From Verrucomicrobiales bacterium (lineage in GTDB: Bacteria; Verrucomicrobiota; Verrucomicrobiia; Limisphaerales; UBA9464), in NCBI GenBank assembly GCA_027488845.1, contig JAIYBC010000060.1, positions 186,001 through 250,000 of the forward strand: 64,000 nucleotides of DNA, given 5' to 3'. This document shows, one piece after another, positions 3,046-56,417 of the stretch (position 1 is its first letter; every line of letters starts with the position of its first letter). A program made the translations under genes and the position numbers. The notes beneath the pieces are model-generated. The model searched no databases and was not told where the DNA came from. It worked only from the letters and a program-made list of their open reading frames with translations.

Positions 3046-5814
3046 GTGTCTGTCACGGCCGAGTTCCCATCCGAGTCCGCCGCTGCCGTTCCGCGCGGCG
3101 GATGCGCCCATTGCGGGGGTCCGCTGCCGGTGGAGGCCACGCCGACCGGCCCTGACCAGACGGCGTTCTGCTGCTACGGCTGCCGCGTGCTCGGCGCGCG
3201 TCCGGAGACGCTCCGCGAAGACCGCATCGACGCACCCCGCAACCCGAATCCCTGGGTGCGCATCGGTCTCGGAGCCGCCATCGCCGGTCAGGCCATGGTG
3301 CTGGGCCTGACGGTGAACCTCTCCGAGACCGAAGGCACCGTGCGTTGGGCCCTGCACGGCGCCCTCATCGCCTCGGCGCTCGCCGTCACCGTCCTCCTCG
3401 GCTGGCCGCTCTTCCGGGCCGGCTGGGATTGCGCCTGCCGACGCACGGTCGGCGTCGAATGGCTGTTCCTCTCCGGCGTCGTCGGCGCGTTCGGGGCCTC
3501 GCTCTGGTCCACCTTCTCCGGAGTCGGGGCCGTCTACTACGAAGTCGTCGCGGTCCTCCTCACCGTCTACACCGGCGGAAAGGCCCTCACCGCGGCCGCA
3601 CGGTCCCGCGCCCTCGCCGGCACCCGAAGCCTCGGTGACACCTTCCGCACCGCCCGGCTGGAAGACGGCCGCAGCGTGCCCGTGGAGACGATCCGGCCCG
3701 GAGACCGGGTCCGGATACGGCCCGGGGAGGTGATCCCGGTTGACGGACGTGTCCTCGCCGGCGAGGCCTTCGTCCGGGGCACGCCGCTCACCGGGGAACC
3801 GGATCCGGTGGTGGTCCGACCGGGCGATGCGGTCCACGCCGGGGACTTCTCCGAGGATGCCGAGCTCCTCGTGGAGTCCAGCGCCTCCGGAACCGCGCGA
3901 CGCATCGACCAACTCCTCGCGTCCGTCGAGCAGGCGCGGGGAACGCTCGACGGAACCCGTTCCCAGGCCCAGGCGGACCGCCTCGCCGGCGTGTTCCTGC
4001 CCCTGGTGCTCCTGACCGCGCTGGGGACCTTCGGTTGGTGGACCTGCCAGGGACAATGGCGGGAAGGCCTGTTCCACGGACTCTCCGTGTTGCTCGTGGC
4101 CTGTCCTTGCGCGTTGGGCCTGGCCACGCCGCTCGGACTCTGGCAGGCGCTCGTCCAACTCGCCGCCCACGGCGTCACCGTCCGCGACGCCGCCGTCGTG
4201 GAGCGCTTGGCGGAGATCGACACGGTGGTCCTCGACAAGACCGGCACGATCACCGAGGGCCGCATGTCGCTGGTGGACTTCGTCTCGCTGGGCGACGCCA
4301 CGGAACGACTGCGTCTGCTGCGGATCGTCCAGGCCGTCGAACAACGCAGCGGCCATCCCGTGGCCCGCGCCTTCCACCGGGACGAAACCGCGCCGGAGGA
4401 TCCGTCCATCGTGGTCGTCTCGTTCCGCGCGGTCCCGGCCCGCGGCGTCGAGGCGCTCGTCCAGGAAGGGAGCGATGGCACCCGGCGGATCCGGATCGGC
4501 ACCGCCGACTGGATCGTCGGTGGGAGCGACTCCGCCGTCGCCGGCCCACTCCTGGCCAGGATCCGCGCCGTGCCGGGGACGTCGACGGTCTGGGTCTCGG
4601 TCGACGACAAGCCGGCGGCGATCGCCTCGGTGCGCGAACGGGTCCGCGACTCCGCCGCGGAAGCCGTGCGGGAGTTGCGTGGCATCGGCGTCGCCGTGGA
4701 GGTGCTCTCCGGCGACCATGCGACACGGGTCGCCGCGGTCACCCGCGAGGTCGCCGGCCAGGACGCCCCCTTGGAATCGCGGGGAGCCCAGGACCCCATG
4801 GAGAAGGCGACGCGGCTCCGCGAGCTGGCCGCCGCCGGACGACGGACGCTGTTCCTCGGAGACGGTCTCAACGACGCACCGGGCCTGGGAGCCGCCCATG
4901 TCGGGCTGGCGGTCGCGGAAGGCGCCTCGCTCGCGGTGGCCACGGCCGACGGGGTGCTCCACGGCGGCGACCTTCGGTCCGTGTTCCGTGCCGTCCGTGT
5001 CGCCCGCAGTGTCGCCGAATCGATCCGGGGCAACCTCCGGTTCGCCGCCGCCTACAACGGCGTGGGCATGGCCCTGGCCGCCACCGGACACCTCCACCCC
5101 ATCGCGGCGGCCCTGCTCATGGCCGGCAGCAGCGTGGTGGTCGGCTGGCGCTCCTGGCGACACGACGGCTGCCACGCCGCGGCGGAACCGGATCGGCCCA
5201 CCGCACGCTGGTGGATCCCGGCGACGCTCCTCCTCCAGATCCCGATGTTGATGGGCCTCGGCCGCCTGGCCTCCGGCCCGTCCTTGGCGATCGCCCTGCT
5301 GATGGCCTCCTTGGCCGCGGGCGCACTCGTCTGGAGTCGACGGCGTCCGGAGATGGGCGGAGGAGTGCGGGCCACCGGCGACATGACGCTGGCGATGCTC
5401 GGACCCGCGGGTCTGGGAATGCTGCTGGGATGGTGGGTGGAAGCCGGTTTCCAACCGGTCATGCGGGACGGCGTGTGCCTCTGCTGTTCGGGACACGCCT
5501 ACTTCGGCGCCGGTTGGAAGATCCCCTGGATGCCGTTGGGAATGCTGCTCGCCGGCATGCCGGGAATGTGGGGCACGCTTTCCCGCTGGGACGGCCGTTG
5601 GGGCAGGATCACGGCGGCCGGCATCGTCGCGGCAGGGATGACGGCAGGGATGTCGGGGGGGGCGACGCTGGCGCTCCGCATCGCCGGACCGATGCATCCG
5701 TGGCAGTTCCCGGCGGTGTTCCTCGGAATGACCGTCGGGATGCTGGCCGGCATGTACTTCGCATGCGCGCTGGCCGAAGCGGCGCGACCCGCCTGGAAGG
5801 AAATCGGACGCTGA
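3046..5814 (+). CDS. copper-type P1B ATPase with Met-rich C-terminal membrane extension
   Basis: A 922-residue heavy-metal P-type ATPase starting at GTG 3046. Residues ~20-46 form the Cys-rich CAHCGG...CCYGC module (ATPase-cat_bd type); no HMA domain follows. The core has the CPC metal site in TM6 (LLVACPCALGLATP), the phosphorylation motif DKTGTITEG, the HP motif (SGHPVARAF) and GDGLNDAPGLG. These indicate Cu+/Ag+ export or FixI/CcoI-like copper delivery. After the core ends near residue 710, a further ~200 residues add about six hydrophobic segments with some 18 methionines, many in GM pairs, and a CLCC-SGH cluster. That tail is not part of the standard fold. No copper chaperone or regulator gene is adjacent. 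Confidence 0.88.
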   Translation: MSVTAEFPSESAAAVPRGGCAHCGGPLPVEATPTGPDQTAFCCYGCRVLGARPETLREDRIDAPRNPNPWVRIGLGAAIAGQAMVLGLTVNLSETEGTVRWALHGALIASALAVTVLLGWPLFRAGWDCACRRTVGVEWLFLSGVVGAFGASLWSTFSGVGAVYYEVVAVLLTVYTGGKALTAAARSRALAGTRSLGDTFRTARLEDGRSVPVETIRPGDRVRIRPGEVIPVDGRVLAGEAFVRGTPLTGEPDPVVVRPGDAVHAGDFSEDAELLVESSASGTARRIDQLLASVEQARGTLDGTRSQAQADRLAGVFLPLVLLTALGTFGWWTCQGQWREGLFHGLSVLLVACPCALGLATPLGLWQALVQLAAHGVTVRDAAVVERLAEIDTVVLDKTGTITEGRMSLVDFVSLGDATERLRLLRIVQAVEQRSGHPVARAFHRDETAPEDPSIVVVSFRAVPARGVEALVQEGSDGTRRIRIGTADWIVGGSDSAVAGPLLARIRAVPGTSTVWVSVDDKPAAIASVRERVRDSAAEAVRELRGIGVAVEVLSGDHATRVAAVTREVAGQDAPLESRGAQDPMEKATRLRELAAAGRRTLFLGDGLNDAPGLGAAHVGLAVAEGASLAVATADGVLHGGDLRSVFRAVRVARSVAESIRGNLRFAAAYNGVGMALAATGHLHPIAAALLMAGSSVVVGWRSWRHDGCHAAAEPDRPTARWWIPATLLLQIPMLMGLGRLASGPSLAIALLMASLAAGALVWSRRRPEMGGGVRATGDMTLAMLGPAGLGMLLGWWVEAGFQPVMRDGVCLCCSGHAYFGAGWKIPWMPLGMLLAGMPGMWGTLSRWDGRWGRITAAGIVAAGMTAGMSGGATLALRIAGPMHPWQFPAVFLGMTVGMLAGMYFACALAEAARPAWKEIGR

Positions 5815-49570: not shown

Positions 49571-51070
49571 TCAGCGGCCGGGCCGGGCCCGGGCAGGAAT
49601 CTCCATCCGATCCGTCACGTCTCCGGTGCGCCTGCTCGGGGACTCGGCGGCGTCGGGATAGGCCCGGACGTATTCCATCCGCGCGGCTTCCGGCGAGACC
49701 CGGACGCGAAGGATGCCAGAAGGCCCCTGGATCTCCCCTTGCCGGTACCCGTACTCCGCGGCGCTGCGAGGAGGGTCGTATCGGCGGTGTCCGGGTTGGG
49801 GGACGAGGACGTAGAGCATCCCGTCCCGCTGCTGGCGGGCGTAGAAGTGGTCGTGTCCATGGAACACCGCGGTCACGCCGTTTCGGACCAGGAGGTCATG
49901 CACCGGCAGATTCCATCCGGGACGATGGGTCGCGAAGCCGTCCTTCCCATCGGGTTCCAGGCCACCCCATTCGAAGAGTCGGGACGCCTCGGCGCCTCCC
50001 CGGCCCTCCCGGGATTCGCCACCGGCGAGGTGATGGAGAAAGACAAAGCGAAAGCGGGCCCGGCTGGTCTCCAGGGTTTGCTGGAGCCAGCGGTATTGGC
50101 GTTCGCCCAGGGTCCGGGACCAGTTGTCGCCGCCGCGGGTCCGGGTGGAGAACCAGAAGGGATCCAGCACCACGAACAGGGCGTCTCCCCAGTGCCACGC
50201 ATAGTAGTCCTGAAGCAGCCCGGCCACCGGGTGGGGCACCTCGTTGCCCGTGTAGAAGCCGTCGGGAACCGGGTTGGGGAAGTGGCGCTTCCGCTGCAGG
50301 TTGGACCAGACCGGCATGGAATCCGCGCCCGCCCCGCCGCGTCCCGGTTGCTCGCCGTCGTGGTTGCCCAACACCAGGAACACCGCCGCCTGCCTTCCCA
50401 CCTGACCCAGCCAATGGCGCTGGGCCCGGTACTGGGGAAGCGCCTCATGGAACTCGGCGTACTTGTCGGTCATGAAGGTGTCGCCCAGGTCGACGTGGAA
50501 GTCGGTCCCCGAGTCGACCGCATTCCGGAGGGATTTCCCGTACACCGCGAGGTCGGTCCCGTAGTCGAGATGGGGGTCCGCCTGGACCGTGAAGGTGAAG
50601 GCCTCGCCCAGAGCCCGTGCCGTGGTGAACCGGCGGGTCTCGCCCAAGGTCCAGTCCGCCTCGCCCGGACTCCGGGTGCGGACCCGGTAGTGATTCGTGC
50701 CGGCCGGCAAGCCGCTCAGCAGGAATTCCAACGGTTCGCCAGCCCGGAGCATCCGGACCGGAGTGGATTGGGTGAGGGCGTCGGACCGGACACCGTGGTC
50801 GACACAGACCTCGAGTTCCCGGCGAGCCAAGAGACTGAGGGTGATCGAATCGCGGGTCGGCCTTCCAAGGACCGCGTTCCAATCCTCGGGCGGCACTTCG
50901 GTCTGGAAGGCCGGGGTCGGCATCCGCACGCCACCTTCCTGTCCGGACGGCGGACGTCTCGCGGGGGATTCCTTCGCGGTCTCCGTCGCCGCGAACACCG
51001 GAAACGTCGAAGCCAGCGGCACCGCCGCCGCGAGCACCCACCGGAGGAGGCGCATCGGGAGCCTTCTCAT
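49571..51070 (-). CDS. secreted metallophosphoesterase
   Basis: A 499-residue exported calcineurin-like phosphoesterase, with a signal peptide (MRLLRWVLAAAVPLASTFPV) if counted from the second Met; ATG 51070 overlaps the sulfatase stop (ATGA). A fibronectin-like N-terminal domain (~60-150, FLLSGLPAGTNHYRVRTRSP) as in purple-acid-phosphatase-like proteins precedes the catalytic domain. Metal ligands are in VQADPHLD, HVDLGDTF, LVLGNHDGE, FLHHLAGG and FHGHDHFYAR, so both metal sites look complete. Substrate is unknown (phosphomonoester or diester). Third and last gene of the YHYH-PEBP/sulfatase unit. Confidence 0.9.
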   Translation of the reverse strand: MRRLPMRLLRWVLAAAVPLASTFPVFAATETAKESPARRPPSGQEGGVRMPTPAFQTEVPPEDWNAVLGRPTRDSITLSLLARRELEVCVDHGVRSDALTQSTPVRMLRAGEPLEFLLSGLPAGTNHYRVRTRSPGEADWTLGETRRFTTARALGEAFTFTVQADPHLDYGTDLAVYGKSLRNAVDSGTDFHVDLGDTFMTDKYAEFHEALPQYRAQRHWLGQVGRQAAVFLVLGNHDGEQPGRGGAGADSMPVWSNLQRKRHFPNPVPDGFYTGNEVPHPVAGLLQDYYAWHWGDALFVVLDPFWFSTRTRGGDNWSRTLGERQYRWLQQTLETSRARFRFVFLHHLAGGESREGRGGAEASRLFEWGGLEPDGKDGFATHRPGWNLPVHDLLVRNGVTAVFHGHDHFYARQQRDGMLYVLVPQPGHRRYDPPRSAAEYGYRQGEIQGPSGILRVRVSPEAARMEYVRAYPDAAESPSRRTGDVTDRMEIPARARPGR

Positions 51071-52542
51071 GGCCGTTCCTCCTTGGCTTTCCGGCGGTCG
51101 TTCCGGCCCGGCCTGCCCTCGCGAAGTCCGCGGCGCTCGCCGGGGAGCGTGTCGGCCGACGCCTTGGGATCCGCGTTGCCATTCACCCGCGGGAGCGCGG
51201 CCTTCGCCGACGCGAGCGCCTCGGTCAACCGGCGGTCGAGGTCGTCGACCACCTCCGGACGGTCCCTCGCCAGGTTCACCCGCTCGGAGGGATCGGTCGC
51301 GAGGTCGTGGAGCCTCCGTTCCCCGGTCTCGTAGATCCGCACCAGCTTCAGGTCCCCGTGGATCAGCGCGGACGCCGGGCCGAGCGGGTCCTTGTCGTAG
51401 TGGGGCACATGGACCAGCCAATCCTCGCGGGCACGCCGGACTTCTCCCGAGCCACCGGCCCGGAGGAGCGGGACCAGGCTGCCCCCTTCGAGGCCCTCGC
51501 GGCTTCCCGGGTCCACCCCGGCCAATTCAGCGACCGTGGGGAAGAGGTCCACCGAGGTGGTGAAGGTCCGGGCAAAGGTCCCCGCCGAGACACCGGGTCC
51601 ACGGATCAACAAGGGAACCCGCAGGCCGCCTTCCGAAACCATGCCCTTGCCACCGGAGAACGGCGGGTTCCTTCCCGGGGCACCGTGGTCGGTGGTGTAG
51701 ATCACGAAAGTCGACTCCAGGACCCCGAGGGATTCCAGCGTCGCGAGGATGCGTCCATAGGAGTTGTCGGCGTCCTCCGCCACCGCGGCCGCGGCGGTCT
51801 CGACCGGGTTCCTTCCGGCCGCCCGGGCTCGGACCCGTTCGAGGGTCTCCGGCAGGACGTCGAGGGCGCTTCGGCCGGCGTACTGGGCGATCTGGAGATA
51901 GAACGGCTGGTGTTCCCGGACCGCACGGGTGATGAAGTCGACCCCGAGGTCGGCGCTGCGGAACGCCTGCTTCGGATTCGGGTTCGACACGTTGTCAGGC
52001 CCCCCGTTGGAGGTGGGACCGGTGCTCTCGTCGAAGCCATGCGCGGCCGGATCGGTCCGCCCGAGGTGCCACTTGCCGAAGTGGGCGGTGCGATATCCCG
52101 AGGTCTTGAGCCGCTTCGCCAACGTCGTGACGGAACGGGGCAGCTCGGTGGTGGACTCCGCCGGAAGCAGGCGTGTCCGCAGTCCACCCTTGGCGTCCCC
52201 GTCGCCGCCTCCCTCGCTGACGAAAGTCATGCGGAGCGCCGCCGGGCTGCGGCCGGTGAGGAGGGCGGCCCGGGTCGGGGTGCATCGGGGAGAGGCGGCA
52301 TGGAACCGGGTGAACCGCATTCCCTCCCGGGCGATCCGGTCGAGGTTGGGCGTCCGCACCAACAGGCTGCGCGACTCCGCGATCCGGTCGTCCATCGGGG
52401 CGGAAAGGGACGACCACCCCTGCCCTTCGCCGATCAGCACGATGAAGTTGGGACGGGCCGGATCGGCGGCCTGGGCCGCGAAGGCGAGGAGCAGAAGCCC
52501 CAGGAACGACCATCCCGGGAGACGCGTTCGGAGTCGGTTCAT
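51067..52542 (-). CDS. secreted sulfatase, atypical metal and formylglycine motifs
   Basis: A 491-residue alkaline-phosphatase-superfamily sulfatase with signal peptide (start ATG 52542, MNRLRTRLPGWSFLGLLLLA). The usual ADDLG metal motif is replaced by LIGEGQGWSS and the formylglycine site is RCTPTRAALLTGR (Cys87, Thr in place of the common Ser). FGKWHLGRTD and YTTDHGAPGRNP (for the usual DNG) remain, and SGGKGMVSEGGLRVPLLIRGPG supplies the late metal region. The C-terminal ~35 residues are strongly basic and charged. It may be a distinct sulfatase subgroup with altered metal binding. It lies eight bases after the YHYH-PEBP gene. Confidence 0.9.
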   Translation of the reverse strand: MNRLRTRLPGWSFLGLLLLAFAAQAADPARPNFIVLIGEGQGWSSLSAPMDDRIAESRSLLVRTPNLDRIAREGMRFTRFHAASPRCTPTRAALLTGRSPAALRMTFVSEGGGDGDAKGGLRTRLLPAESTTELPRSVTTLAKRLKTSGYRTAHFGKWHLGRTDPAAHGFDESTGPTSNGGPDNVSNPNPKQAFRSADLGVDFITRAVREHQPFYLQIAQYAGRSALDVLPETLERVRARAAGRNPVETAAAAVAEDADNSYGRILATLESLGVLESTFVIYTTDHGAPGRNPPFSGGKGMVSEGGLRVPLLIRGPGVSAGTFARTFTTSVDLFPTVAELAGVDPGSREGLEGGSLVPLLRAGGSGEVRRAREDWLVHVPHYDKDPLGPASALIHGDLKLVRIYETGERRLHDLATDPSERVNLARDRPEVVDDLDRRLTEALASAKAALPRVNGNADPKASADTLPGERRGLREGRPGRNDRRKAKEERP

Positions 52543-52550
52543 GAAGCGGT

Positions 52551-54239
52551 TCAGCGGGGTTGAGACTCGGACGTGTTTCGGTCGCGACGGGGATTCCGGG
52601 CATCCTGGGAGTCGCGGGAATCGGCGTTCCGTGTGGCCACCACGGCCAGCTCGGCGGTGTCGAGGACCAGGCCCTCCATGGCTTCGAGGAGCCCATCGCG
52701 GCTGACGTCCGACGCCGATACCGGGATCCGGGGCGGACCGGAGAGGGCATACAAGGTGAGGAGGTAGGTCTTCGCACCGGGCCCCTTGGAATGGGGCGGC
52801 GCATAGGCGTTCTTCCGGTTCACGCTGTTGCTGCCGAGGACGCCGATGCCCCCGCCGCCCTTCGGCAGGCCCCGGGCCGAAGCGGGGATGCCGCGGACAC
52901 TCCAGTACCACTTGGCCTTACCCTGGGGATCCAGGTGGTGCATGAGGACCACCCATTCCCGGGTTCCCTCCGGCATGCCGGTCCACTCCAGCGGCGGGCT
53001 CACCCCGGCTCCGTCTCCGGTGAATTCGACGGGAAGCTCCCCTCCCTCCGCAAAAGCGGTGCTGCCCAGGCGGAGCCGACCACTGCGCCGAGGGGCGGGG
53101 CGCGACGCGGCGTCCGGCGCGCCGGCAGAAGGGGGAGTCCCGACGGACCGCCCCGGACCCTCCCGCGGGGCGCGCCTGGGACCATCGGACGGCGTCGTCC
53201 CCGCCCGATGGAGTTCGCGACGTTCCGTCCCGTCGGGCTGGCGGTAGACGAATGTCCAGACGCCCTCCGTCGACTGCTCGTAGGCCACCGATCCCGGGCG
53301 GCCACCGACGGTGTATCCGAGCTCGTACTTGCGGGCGGACTCATCCGCGGAGAACGCCGTGATACGCGCGCCCCGCAGCGGCGTCAGCGACGGACGCACC
53401 GGCCGGGCCCGGGGCTGTGGATCCACCTGCCCCTCGCGTTCCGCCACCTCCCCGTGGAATCCGCCCTGGACGAAGGGATAGGTCCGGGACGCATGGTAGT
53501 GGTAGCCCAGCGACGCGGTCTCATGTCCGTGGAACTCGTCCAGCTTGCCGGTGGAGGTCCCATCGGGTTCCTCCAGCCCGTAGATCGGGTAGCCATCCAG
53601 GGCGAAGGCGATCGGGCGGGATTTCCCAACCGTCTGCTGCAGGTGGAACGGGGCCGCATGGTAGTGGTAGTCGTCGGCCCGGCCGCAATGGCCGCCCCAC
53701 TGGTCCAGTTCGCCGATGTCGTTGGAGATCTCGCCCCGGTTGTTCTGCGGGTTGAAGATGGGGATGCCGTTGACCGCGACCGCGATGGCCCCACGGAGGA
53801 ACTGGTTGCGGATGGACCGGGGTTGGGTTGCAGGGACCGGATGCCGTGGAATCCGCCAGGCGTTGTCTCCGGTGTAGTCCTGCGGCAACGGCACCTGCTG
53901 TTGCCAGGCGGTGATTCCCACCATCATCCCGTGGTCCGGCATTCCCCGGTTCTCCACGTACAGGAACCCGTCGTCCCAACGGACCCGGACCCGTGGGGAG
54001 AAGGCCAGGAACGCCTCCGCCTGGATCGGCGCATCCGACGTGGATCCGGTGGACTTGGATTTGGAGACATCCGGCCCCGGCGTCGCCGCCGCCATCGTCC
54101 GAACATGGGAATGAACCGGGGTCGACGTTCCGTGCACGTGCGGCCCTGAAGAAGTCCCGCCGATGTCGTGGGCCGGCACCGGGGCCGTCACAGCCACGAG
54201 ACACCACGTCCACCGGAGAAGGAATCGGGTCCTGTTCAT
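52551..54239 (-). CDS. YHYH domain-PEBP (YbhB-like) fusion protein
   Basis: A 562-residue exported protein (signal peptide ending near PVPAHD). His-rich stretches follow (DIGGTSSGPHVHG, STPVHSHV). Residues ~75-285 are a YHYH domain with DDYHYHAAPF (~193) and LGYHYHASRTYPF, plus the conserved FALDGYPIYG. A basic Pro-rich linker (~340-385) leads to a YbhB/YbcL-type phosphatidylethanolamine-binding domain (~388-540: LPVEFTGDGAGVSPPLEW, VVLMHHLDP, GPGAKTYLLTLYALS). Both domains have unknown substrates. The repeated His pairs could bind metal. First gene of a three-gene secreted unit, divergent from a two-component system. Confidence 0.88.
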   Translation of the reverse strand: MNRTRFLLRWTWCLVAVTAPVPAHDIGGTSSGPHVHGTSTPVHSHVRTMAAATPGPDVSKSKSTGSTSDAPIQAEAFLAFSPRVRVRWDDGFLYVENRGMPDHGMMVGITAWQQQVPLPQDYTGDNAWRIPRHPVPATQPRSIRNQFLRGAIAVAVNGIPIFNPQNNRGEISNDIGELDQWGGHCGRADDYHYHAAPFHLQQTVGKSRPIAFALDGYPIYGLEEPDGTSTGKLDEFHGHETASLGYHYHASRTYPFVQGGFHGEVAEREGQVDPQPRARPVRPSLTPLRGARITAFSADESARKYELGYTVGGRPGSVAYEQSTEGVWTFVYRQPDGTERRELHRAGTTPSDGPRRAPREGPGRSVGTPPSAGAPDAASRPAPRRSGRLRLGSTAFAEGGELPVEFTGDGAGVSPPLEWTGMPEGTREWVVLMHHLDPQGKAKWYWSVRGIPASARGLPKGGGGIGVLGSNSVNRKNAYAPPHSKGPGAKTYLLTLYALSGPPRIPVSASDVSRDGLLEAMEGLVLDTAELAVVATRNADSRDSQDARNPRRDRNTSESQPR

Positions 54240-54255
54240 GGACCGACCCTGACCG

Positions 54256-54261
54256 ACCCTA
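54256..54261 (-). promoter_or_regulatory. candidate -10 box for the YHYH-PEBP operon
   Basis: TAGGGT on the minus strand directly abuts the left arm of the operator and lies 16 bases from the ATG at 54239. No -35 box is visible; the tandem TTCA site takes its place, as at activator-dependent promoters. A direct repeat of AGGGTCGGTC (54241-54260 on the minus strand) overlaps it. Confidence 0.45.
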
Positions 54262-54334
54262 CCTGAAGCCAGGATGAATGGACGGTCCCGCCCTTCCGCG
54301 GTTTGGCTGGTCTTCCATTCATCCTGGCTTCAGG
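54262..54334. promoter_or_regulatory. perfect 21-base inverted repeat, probable OmpR-type operator
   Basis: Arms at 54262-54282 and 54314-54334 are exact reverse complements around a 31-base centre. Each arm, read outward, contains TTCAT-N6-TTCAG, i.e. two TTCA half-sites 11 bases apart (start to start), the one-turn spacing bound in tandem by OmpR/PhoB-family regulators. One arm faces each divergent gene. Confidence 0.75.
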
Positions 54335-54366
54335 AAGTCCCGGTCATCTTCCAGCTGCCCGTCGCC

Positions 54367-55017
54367 ATGAGGCTCCTCGTTGTCGAAGACGAACCCGACC
54401 TGCTCTCCGGACTGGCCCGCGCGCTCCGGAGGGAGGGCTATGCCGTGGACACCGCCGTGGACGGGGAGGAAGGCCTCTACAAGGCCAGTTCGACCGACTA
54501 CGACGCCATCCTGCTGGACCTCCAGATCCCCAAGCTCGACGGATGGACCCTGTTGTCACGACTCCGTGAGGCTCGGAACACGCCCGTGCTGGTCCTGACC
54601 GCGCGGGACGCGCTGGGGGACCGGATCCGCGGGCTGGACGGCGGGGCCGACGACTACCTGGTGAAGCCCTTCGACATGCCGGAACTGATGGCCCGGCTCC
54701 GGGCGGTCATCCGGCGCGGGGCCCGACAGGCCCGGGCAGTGATCGAGGTTGGGAACCTGGAGGTGGACACGGCTTCCCGAACCGTCCGCCAGGCGGGGAA
54801 CCCGGTTCCGCTCACGGCCCGGGAGTACGTGCTCCTGGAGTACCTCGTGCTCCACCGCGGCGAGGTGGTGAGCCGCACCGAGCTCTATGAGCACCTGTTC
54901 GACGAGAACGACGCGACGTTGTCCAACCTGCTCGACGTCCATGTCTCCAACCTGCGTCGGAAACTGGGGGCGGACCTGATCCAGACACGCCGCGGCCTGG
55001 GGTATTCCGTCGAATGA
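54367..55017 (+). CDS. OmpR-family response regulator
   Basis: A 216-residue regulator: receiver domain (residues 1-~115) with acidic pocket EDE (7-9), phospho-Asp51 in AILLDLQIP, Thr in LVLTARDA and Lys in YLVKPFD; winged-helix DNA-binding domain (~125-216) with LTAREYVLLEYLVLHRG, the recognition helix VHVSNLRRKLG and TRRGLGYSVE. Start ATG 54367 is the conserved N-terminus. It overlaps the sensor kinase gene by four bases (ATGA at 55014). The inverted repeat 33 bases upstream is the natural candidate for autoregulation and for control of the divergent secreted unit. Confidence 0.95.
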   Translation: MRLLVVEDEPDLLSGLARALRREGYAVDTAVDGEEGLYKASSTDYDAILLDLQIPKLDGWTLLSRLREARNTPVLVLTARDALGDRIRGLDGGADDYLVKPFDMPELMARLRAVIRRGARQARAVIEVGNLEVDTASRTVRQAGNPVPLTAREYVLLEYLVLHRGEVVSRTELYEHLFDENDATLSNLLDVHVSNLRRKLGADLIQTRRGLGYSVE

Positions 55018-56417
55018 GGTGCTTCCAATCCATCGGCTGGCGACTCCAGCTCTGGCACGGGCTGCTGCTCGCGGTGATCCTCGCGGGATTCGGCGTCACA
55101 GCACACCGCTTCGAGCGGGCCCGCCTGATGCGCCGGATCGACGACGAGCTGGAGCAGCGGATTCCGGTGCTGGTGGAGTCCCAGCGGCCGGTCCGGGGGG
55201 AACGGGAACGCCGGGTCTTCTCCTTGGCGCCGCGACACGCGGGGCTCTTCGACGGGGACGGTCCCCAACCCTTCTACCACGTCGTCTGGCTCAAGCATGG
55301 GGTGGAACCGGTGACCCGCTCCGCCGCGTCCCCGGCGGAGGTCCCCATGCCGCGTCCCGGGGAGCCGACTGTGCGTCAGCGGGGCAGCCTGCGGGAGGCC
55401 TTCCTTTTCCCCGGGCCCGGCGACTGCGTGCTGGTGGGCCGTCGGGTGGACCAGGACCTCGACGGCCAGGACCAACTGGCCTGGAAGCTGGCGGCGGTTG
55501 GAATCGGGGTGCTGGCGCTCGGTTTGGCGATCGGATCCTGGCTGGTGCGGCGGGCCCTGATGCCCATCCACGGGATCAGCGACGCCGCGGTGCGGATTGC
55601 CTCCGGCGACCTGACACGGCGGATCCCTGCGCCGGAATCGGCGGATGAACTGGGACAGCTCGCCGAGGTGCTGAACTCCACCTTCGACCGCCTGGACGCG
55701 GCCTTCGCCCGACAGACCCGGTTCACCGCGGACGCCGCGCACGAACTCCGGACCCCGGTCGCCGTGCTGCTCACCCAGACCGCCAACGGCCTCGCCGCCG
55801 AGGGGCTCGGCGAGGACCAGCGGGAGGCGCTGGAGGCGTGCCAACGGGCGGCCCAGCGGATGCGTCGGCTGATCGATTCCCTGCTTCTGCTCGCCCGCCT
55901 CGACGCCGGGCGCACGGGTGGACGCCGGGAACCCTGCGACCTGTCCAGCCTGGCGCTGGAAACACTGAAGCTGATCCGTCCCCTGGCGGACCGTCGCCGC
56001 ATCGGGATCGATGCCGACCTCCCGCCGGCGACCTGCCTGGGCGATCCCGCACAACTGGAACAGGTCCTGGCGAACCTCGTCTCCAACGCGGTGGATCACA
56101 ACGAGGACGACGGCCGGATCCGGGTGACCACGGGGATGGCGGGAGGAATGGCCGTGGTGACCGTTTGGAACTCCGGGCCACCGATTCCGCAGGGGGATCT
56201 GCCGAGGATCTTTGAACGGTTCCATCGTGTGGACCGCTCGCGGACTTCGGGTCATGGACACACCGGGCTCGGACTGGCCATCGTCCAAGGCATCGTACAG
56301 GCCCATGGCGGGCGCGTTGAGGCTCGCAGCGGCATCGGGGACGGAACCCGGTTCCGGGTGGAGCTTCCCGCCGCCCACGGCGAAGACACGGTCCAAGGCG
56401 GACTGGAGCGGGCCTGA
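55014..56417 (+). CDS. sensor histidine kinase of the two-component pair
   Basis: A 467-residue membrane kinase. TM1 is at ~10-28 (LQLWHGLLLAVILAGFGV), an extracytoplasmic sensor region covers ~29-158, TM2 is ~160-182, then HAMP (ALMPIHGISDAAVRIASGDL) and HisKA with FTADAAHELRTPVAVLLTQ (phospho-His ~242). The ATPase motifs are NLVSNAVDHN, FERFHRVDRSR and GHTGLGLAIVQG. The pattern (FTADAAHELRTP) fits the QseC/PmrB/metal-sensor group. The sensed signal is unknown. It is coupled to the regulator gene by an ATGA overlap and convergent with the surface-protein operon. Confidence 0.95.
   Translation: MRCFQSIGWRLQLWHGLLLAVILAGFGVTAHRFERARLMRRIDDELEQRIPVLVESQRPVRGERERRVFSLAPRHAGLFDGDGPQPFYHVVWLKHGVEPVTRSAASPAEVPMPRPGEPTVRQRGSLREAFLFPGPGDCVLVGRRVDQDLDGQDQLAWKLAAVGIGVLALGLAIGSWLVRRALMPIHGISDAAVRIASGDLTRRIPAPESADELGQLAEVLNSTFDRLDAAFARQTRFTADAAHELRTPVAVLLTQTANGLAAEGLGEDQREALEACQRAAQRMRRLIDSLLLLARLDAGRTGGRREPCDLSSLALETLKLIRPLADRRRIGIDADLPPATCLGDPAQLEQVLANLVSNAVDHNEDDGRIRVTTGMAGGMAVVTVWNSGPPIPQGDLPRIFERFHRVDRSRTSGHGHTGLGLAIVQGIVQAHGGRVEARSGIGDGTRFRVELPAAHGEDTVQGGLERA

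Follow-up and report, generated by a model that had tools for sequence, protein, structure and literature searches.

Divergent operator-promoters predicted for an OmpR/PmrA-like two-component system at a perfect inverted repeat in a Verrucomicrobiales genome

Results and Discussion

The inverted repeat between a secreted YHYH-PEBP gene and the gene of an OmpR/PmrA-like response regulator is, as judged from sequence comparison, very probably a pair of divergent and self-contained operator-promoters of the adjacent two-component system. Each arm forms a tandem box of the OmpR/PmrA type (TTMAT-N6-TTMAK) with half-sites 11 bp apart, and a -10 element (YANNNT) follows it at a constant distance. In the window, the whole 64-kb stretch of DNA that we analysed, the locus is composed of the following features:

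49571..51085, minus strand: metallophosphoesterase, gene 3 of the divergent operon (Metallophos domain; syntenic in three relatives)
51067..52755, minus strand: sulfatase, gene 2 of the divergent operon (Sulfatase domain; syntenic in three relatives)
52551..54239, minus strand: secreted YHYH and PEBP-domain protein, gene 1 of the divergent operon (YHYH, PBP domains; orthologues in G027, G029 and G031)
54251-54246, minus strand: putative left -10, CAGGGT (same offset in 21/21 other second boxes)
54250..54346, no strand: whole inverted repeat (33-nt arms, 29 matches, 31-nt centre)
54262..54282, minus strand: left arm, predicted outward-facing tandem box for the YHYH-PEBP operon (matrix score 33.4 with -10; second box kept in 21 other clusters)
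54278-54274 and 54267-54263, minus strand: left-arm half-sites TTCAT and TTCAG
54314..54334, plus strand: right arm, predicted tandem box for regulator and kinase (matrix score 29.9 with -10; box conserved upstream of orthologous regulators)
54318-54322 and 54329-54333, plus strand: right-arm half-sites TTCAT and TTCAG
54345..54350, plus strand: putative right -10, CATCTT (at the fixed YANNNT offset of the matrix)
54367..55017, plus strand: OmpR/PmrA-like response regulator (Response_reg and Trans_reg_C; nearest NCBIfam model PmrA, below cut-off)
55014..56417, plus strand: sensor histidine kinase (HAMP, HisKA, HATPase_c; nearest NCBIfam model heavy-metal sensor kinase, below cut-off)

The starts of the sulfatase and metallophosphoesterase genes are putative, the longest open frames beginning at 52911 and 51421, respectively. 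The response regulator shows PF00072 and PF00486 above cut-off, corresponding to a receiver and a winged-helix Trans_reg_C domain, and the kinase gene directly follows the regulator gene.

The inverted repeat

The repeat sits between the start codons of the YHYH-PEBP gene (54239, minus strand) and the response regulator gene (54367, plus strand). Its 21-base arms at 54262-54282 (CCTGAAGCCAGGATGAATGGA) and 54314-54334 (TCCATTCATCCTGGCTTCAGG) are exact reverse complements separated by 31 nt, and when they are extended outward to 54250-54282/54314-54346 there are still 29 matches in 33 positions. This is the longest perfect inverted repeat in the window, the runner-up having arms of 15 bases (loops of up to about 100 nt), and in 20 shuffled windows (first-order Markov) the longest one did not exceed 14. 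The initial annotation, which had described perfect 21-base arms far beyond chance with TTCA half-sites 11 bases apart in each of them, is borne out by these data. A further copy of the repeat was not found in the 5.39-Mb genome. The second longest repeat of the window, located at 800-833, is a perfect 15-bp inverted repeat with a 4-nt loop and has a terminator-like form.

The box and its -10 element

The collection of orthologous regulators drew on GTDB genome contigs and on members of the genome's own family. Most of these regulators are 58-73% identical, and their upstream regions share one common motif on the regulator strand, CTTMATCNNNNCTTMAKN, with two half-sites 11 bp apart. The matrix was trained on 34 non-redundant orthologous sites, none of them from this genome. 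At a fixed distance after the box it shows a G (0.82), one base and Y-A(0.93)-N3-T(0.93), which is an extended -10 element, and this element played no part in finding the sites. Within the 64 kb the outside-trained matrix selects exactly both arms, scoring 33.4 for the left arm on the minus strand and 29.9 for the right arm on the plus strand, with the next site at 4.4, while 16 Mb of simulated DNA (first-order) yielded no score above 19.6. The earlier proposal of two outward-facing OmpR/PhoB-type tandem sites is in line with this result. Its left promoter had been placed at TAGGGT, which indeed abuts the left arm (54261-54256, minus strand) 16 bases before the YHYH start codon, but as a -10 element it was rejected, because it does not fit the register of any of the 21 relatives that possess a second box, whereas CAGGGT is in register and puts the start on the ATG.

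The gap between box and -10 element amounts to 11 nt in both arms, and the right -10 CATCTT is weaker than the left CAGGGT. Both match TATAAT poorly, and a general sigma-70 promoter scan detected no -35/-10 pair of the sigma-70 type at the locus, points that weigh against the proposed promoters. For the right promoter a transcript start near 54357 is predicted. On the other side, the YHYH start codon begins 7 nt downstream of the final -10 base, in the window as well as in G027, G029 and G031, and the identical spacing is found in the multicopper-oxidase loci L127, L132 and L136 and in L143. As this is the usual position of transcription start, the YHYH mRNA is predicted to be leaderless, as are those of G027, G029 and G031, its start probably lying on the ATG at 54239, and the fixed 7-nt distance between -10 element and start codon predicts leaderless mRNAs. 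In L130, L131 and L133 (minus strand) the ATG 7 nt past the left -10 opens a short frame only (ATGAAAACG...), which precedes an EF-hand protein starting further on and is possibly a leaderless short upstream peptide.

In order to judge specificity the genome (5.39 Mb) was searched by pattern. TTCAT-N6-TTCAG alone gave 7 matches and is by itself unspecific, because 5 of them lie away from the arms. Addition of the -10 makes it specific: TTMAT-N6-TTMAK-N11-YANNNT is confined in the 5.39-Mb genome to the two arms and to one site in front of the paralogous regulator at C10, with zero matches there for the reversed-pattern control, and over 50 family genomes the composite pattern gave 47 matches versus 9 for the reversed control. 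Box and -10 together are specific enough for finding further targets in genomes. One possible further target of a different form is a box-like cluster in L166 (G000:C25, 1497-1535) with half-sites on both strands, which precedes the gene of a secreted protein containing a cytochrome-like CNGCH motif but lacks a -10 where the conserved register would place it.

Conservation of the paired layout

After collapsing near-identical regulators, 55 clusters remained, namely that of the window and 54 others, and 21 of the latter possess an additional box on the other strand, which does not overlap the first and points away from the regulator. These second boxes were selected on the box alone and lie outside the matrix training; the A and the T of the -10 are present at both positions in 21/21 of them and the full YANNNT in 20/21. 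Both arms and the orthologous loci carry directly repeated half-sites, spaced by about 11 bp, ahead of the gene that they are predicted to control. Box, spacing, -10 element, orientation and conservation can be read directly from this comparison. A divergent neighbour is present in 20/21 clusters with a second box versus 11/33 without (p = 4e-6), and the association gives p = 0.011 when only clusters with a regulator-side box are considered, both p-values being optimistic as the clusters are related to each other. Neighbour orientation was judged from the length and the third-position GC of the ORFs, and L046 and L139 were corrected after inspection. Rayleigh p-values for helical phasing between the two boxes depended on the period assumed, with 0.036 at 10.5 bp, 0.002 at 10.0 and 0.18 at 11.0, all uncorrected.

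The divergent genes are mostly secreted and varied, including YHYH, YHYH-PEBP, multicopper oxidase, planctomycete-type cytochrome c, intradiol-dioxygenase-like, EF-hand and CotH proteins. In the family genomes G027, G029 and G031 the five-gene locus is retained with unchanged gene order and orientation, together with both boxes. Loss of the half-sites in close relatives that keep the genes, which the initial annotation had named as evidence against its reading, is thus not what these three genomes show, since they retain both sites. In the same-genus relative G004 (L009), where a divergent YHYH gene is present, the left box is only degenerate, which counts against the proposal.

A different arrangement was observed in the Opitutae loci (L078-L095, L098, L112 and similar), in which a near-palindromic and almost invariant box (CTTAATCTTGGATTAAG) is located about 50 nt upstream of the regulator. 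Loci of this type have a strong -10 TAGAAT and an upstream gene that is co-directional and not divergent, and the near-palindromic box could reflect head-to-head binding of the orthologous regulator.

Origin of the identical arms and alternative explanations

In the 21 other paired clusters, 8-15 of the 18 box positions are shared between the two boxes, versus 18/18 here, where the identity includes the non-conserved spacer and runs beyond the box. By comparison with these relatives, the perfection of the arms is peculiar to this genome, and the conserved entity is two tandem boxes, each with its -10 at a fixed distance. A perfect palindrome as the functional unit was rejected, as the relatives keep their boxes with just 8-15/18 matches between them. 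Because they already have two non-identical boxes at this place, the identity probably arose by recent inverted duplication or by template-switch correction between two existing boxes and not from a need for a palindrome. Arm identity beyond the conserved positions, which points to recent duplication or conversion, would also suit a miniature inverted-repeat element (MITE) or another mobile fragment, but the repeat is single-copy in the genome and its arms coincide exactly with boxes that relatives conserve at the same place with matching -10 elements. A mobile element was rejected for the absence of other genome copies, and we regard it as the least credible of the alternatives. Hardly more plausible is that the repeat works as an RNA hairpin, be it attenuator or terminator, or as a DNA cruciform in place of protein sites. 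The strand does fold very stably (-60.7 kcal/mol, z -8.6), yet this stability follows from the repeat itself, a search of Rfam gave zero families at threshold and only sub-threshold matches to microRNA hairpins, there is no T-run terminator at the repeat and the complementarity of the arms is not kept in relatives, and for these reasons the RNA hairpin was rejected. With both transcript starts predicted beyond its ends, the repeat would stay untranscribed from them, which likewise counts against an RNA hairpin.

Somewhat less remote, but still improbable, is that the boxes serve chiefly as operators of a different regulator from this group, such as the paralogues C12 or C10, or are shared by all these regulators as one small regulon. 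Both paralogues have similar DNA-binding regions and closely similar boxes before their own genes, that of C12 scoring 34.7, with a -10 departing from the composite pattern at one position, and that of C10 scoring 30.2, so that these regulators may bind the arms as well. Against this, the box stays beside the orthologue of the window regulator in many genomes, an adjacency which suggests autoregulation without proving it. A paralogous locus of the same genome with its own layout is L154 (G000:C12:9000-20000), where a regulator (4143-3490, minus strand, 65% identical) and a divergent gene (4298-5338, plus strand) are accompanied by a pair of outward-facing, non-identical boxes, which face an intradiol-dioxygenase-like secreted protein.

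Proposed mechanism and relation to known systems

For the preferred pair of operator-promoters we propose that a dimer of the phosphorylated regulator would bind head-to-tail to the two half-sites 11 bp apart in each arm. From the end of the second half-site to the -10 there are 11 bp, which is the position from which regulators of this kind activate class II promoters without a good -35. The right arm would then mediate autoregulation of regulator and kinase, and the left arm would activate the operon of the secreted YHYH-PEBP protein, sulfatase and phosphoesterase, whose mRNA is predicted to be leaderless. The identity of the binding protein, the choice of activation over repression, the transcript starts and the inducing signal are inferred in this model, and our guess for the inducer is a metal or envelope signal.

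The box of PmrA (BasR) from enterobacteria, CTTAAG-N5-NTTAAT, has an 11-bp spacing and is bound by a head-to-tail dimer (PMC3973317). The boxes in the window have the same half-site spacing, with TTCAT/TTCAG as half-sites in both arms and TTAAT or TTCAT in relatives. PmrA is also the nearest NCBIfam model of the window regulator and BasR is among its nearest solved structures, but the score of 217.8 against the PmrA equivalog stays below the cut-off of 330 and the regulator is therefore not PmrA. A similar promoter geometry has been described for the architecture I promoters of Salmonella PhoP, including the autoregulated one of phoP, where a direct box lies 11-12 nt upstream of the -10 in class II position (PMC3335776). 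Both window arms fit this geometry with a direct box in place of a -35, 11 nt upstream of the -10, the difference being that the window has two such units back to back for divergent genes. The PhoP half-site is of the GTTTA type, unlike the half-sites found here. The window kinase is closest to the subfamily of the CztR/SilR/CopR-CztS/SilS/CopS heavy-metal systems, and some orthologous loci have divergent multicopper oxidases and cytochromes. As the kinase reaches 256.8 bits against the heavy-metal sensor kinase model (CztS/SilS/CopS; cut-off 292.55) and the regulator 208.6 against the CztR/SilR/CopR model (cut-off 279.2), both below the curated cut-offs, membership in a heavy-metal system is not claimed.

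A wider reading, which we put forward only tentatively and consider rather less probable than the local one, is a Verrucomicrobia-wide module consisting of a PmrA-like two-component system and a paired outward unit of box and -10, with secreted divergent targets that vary between lineages (YHYH-PEBP, multicopper oxidase, cytochrome, intradiol-dioxygenase-like, EF-hand) and are often leaderless, the boxes having been made identical here by template switching or conversion. All component types are known, but their layout and the link to these genes seem to be undescribed; searches of open-access titles and abstracts, which cover part of the literature only, turned up nothing on this system. Few promoters or regulons have been mapped in this phylum, for which the prediction supplies an operator and promoter of a two-component system at base resolution. 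The prediction also ties uncharacterised secreted YHYH-domain proteins to a metal-sensor-like kinase, and the inducing signal could hint at the role of YHYH. In L076 (1-2934, minus strand) the divergent gene fuses a sulfatase and a YHYH domain in one protein, and such a fusion is also seen in L110 and L115, with the Pfam check covering L076 only. As both are separate neighbours in the window, this fusion suggests a functional link between them.
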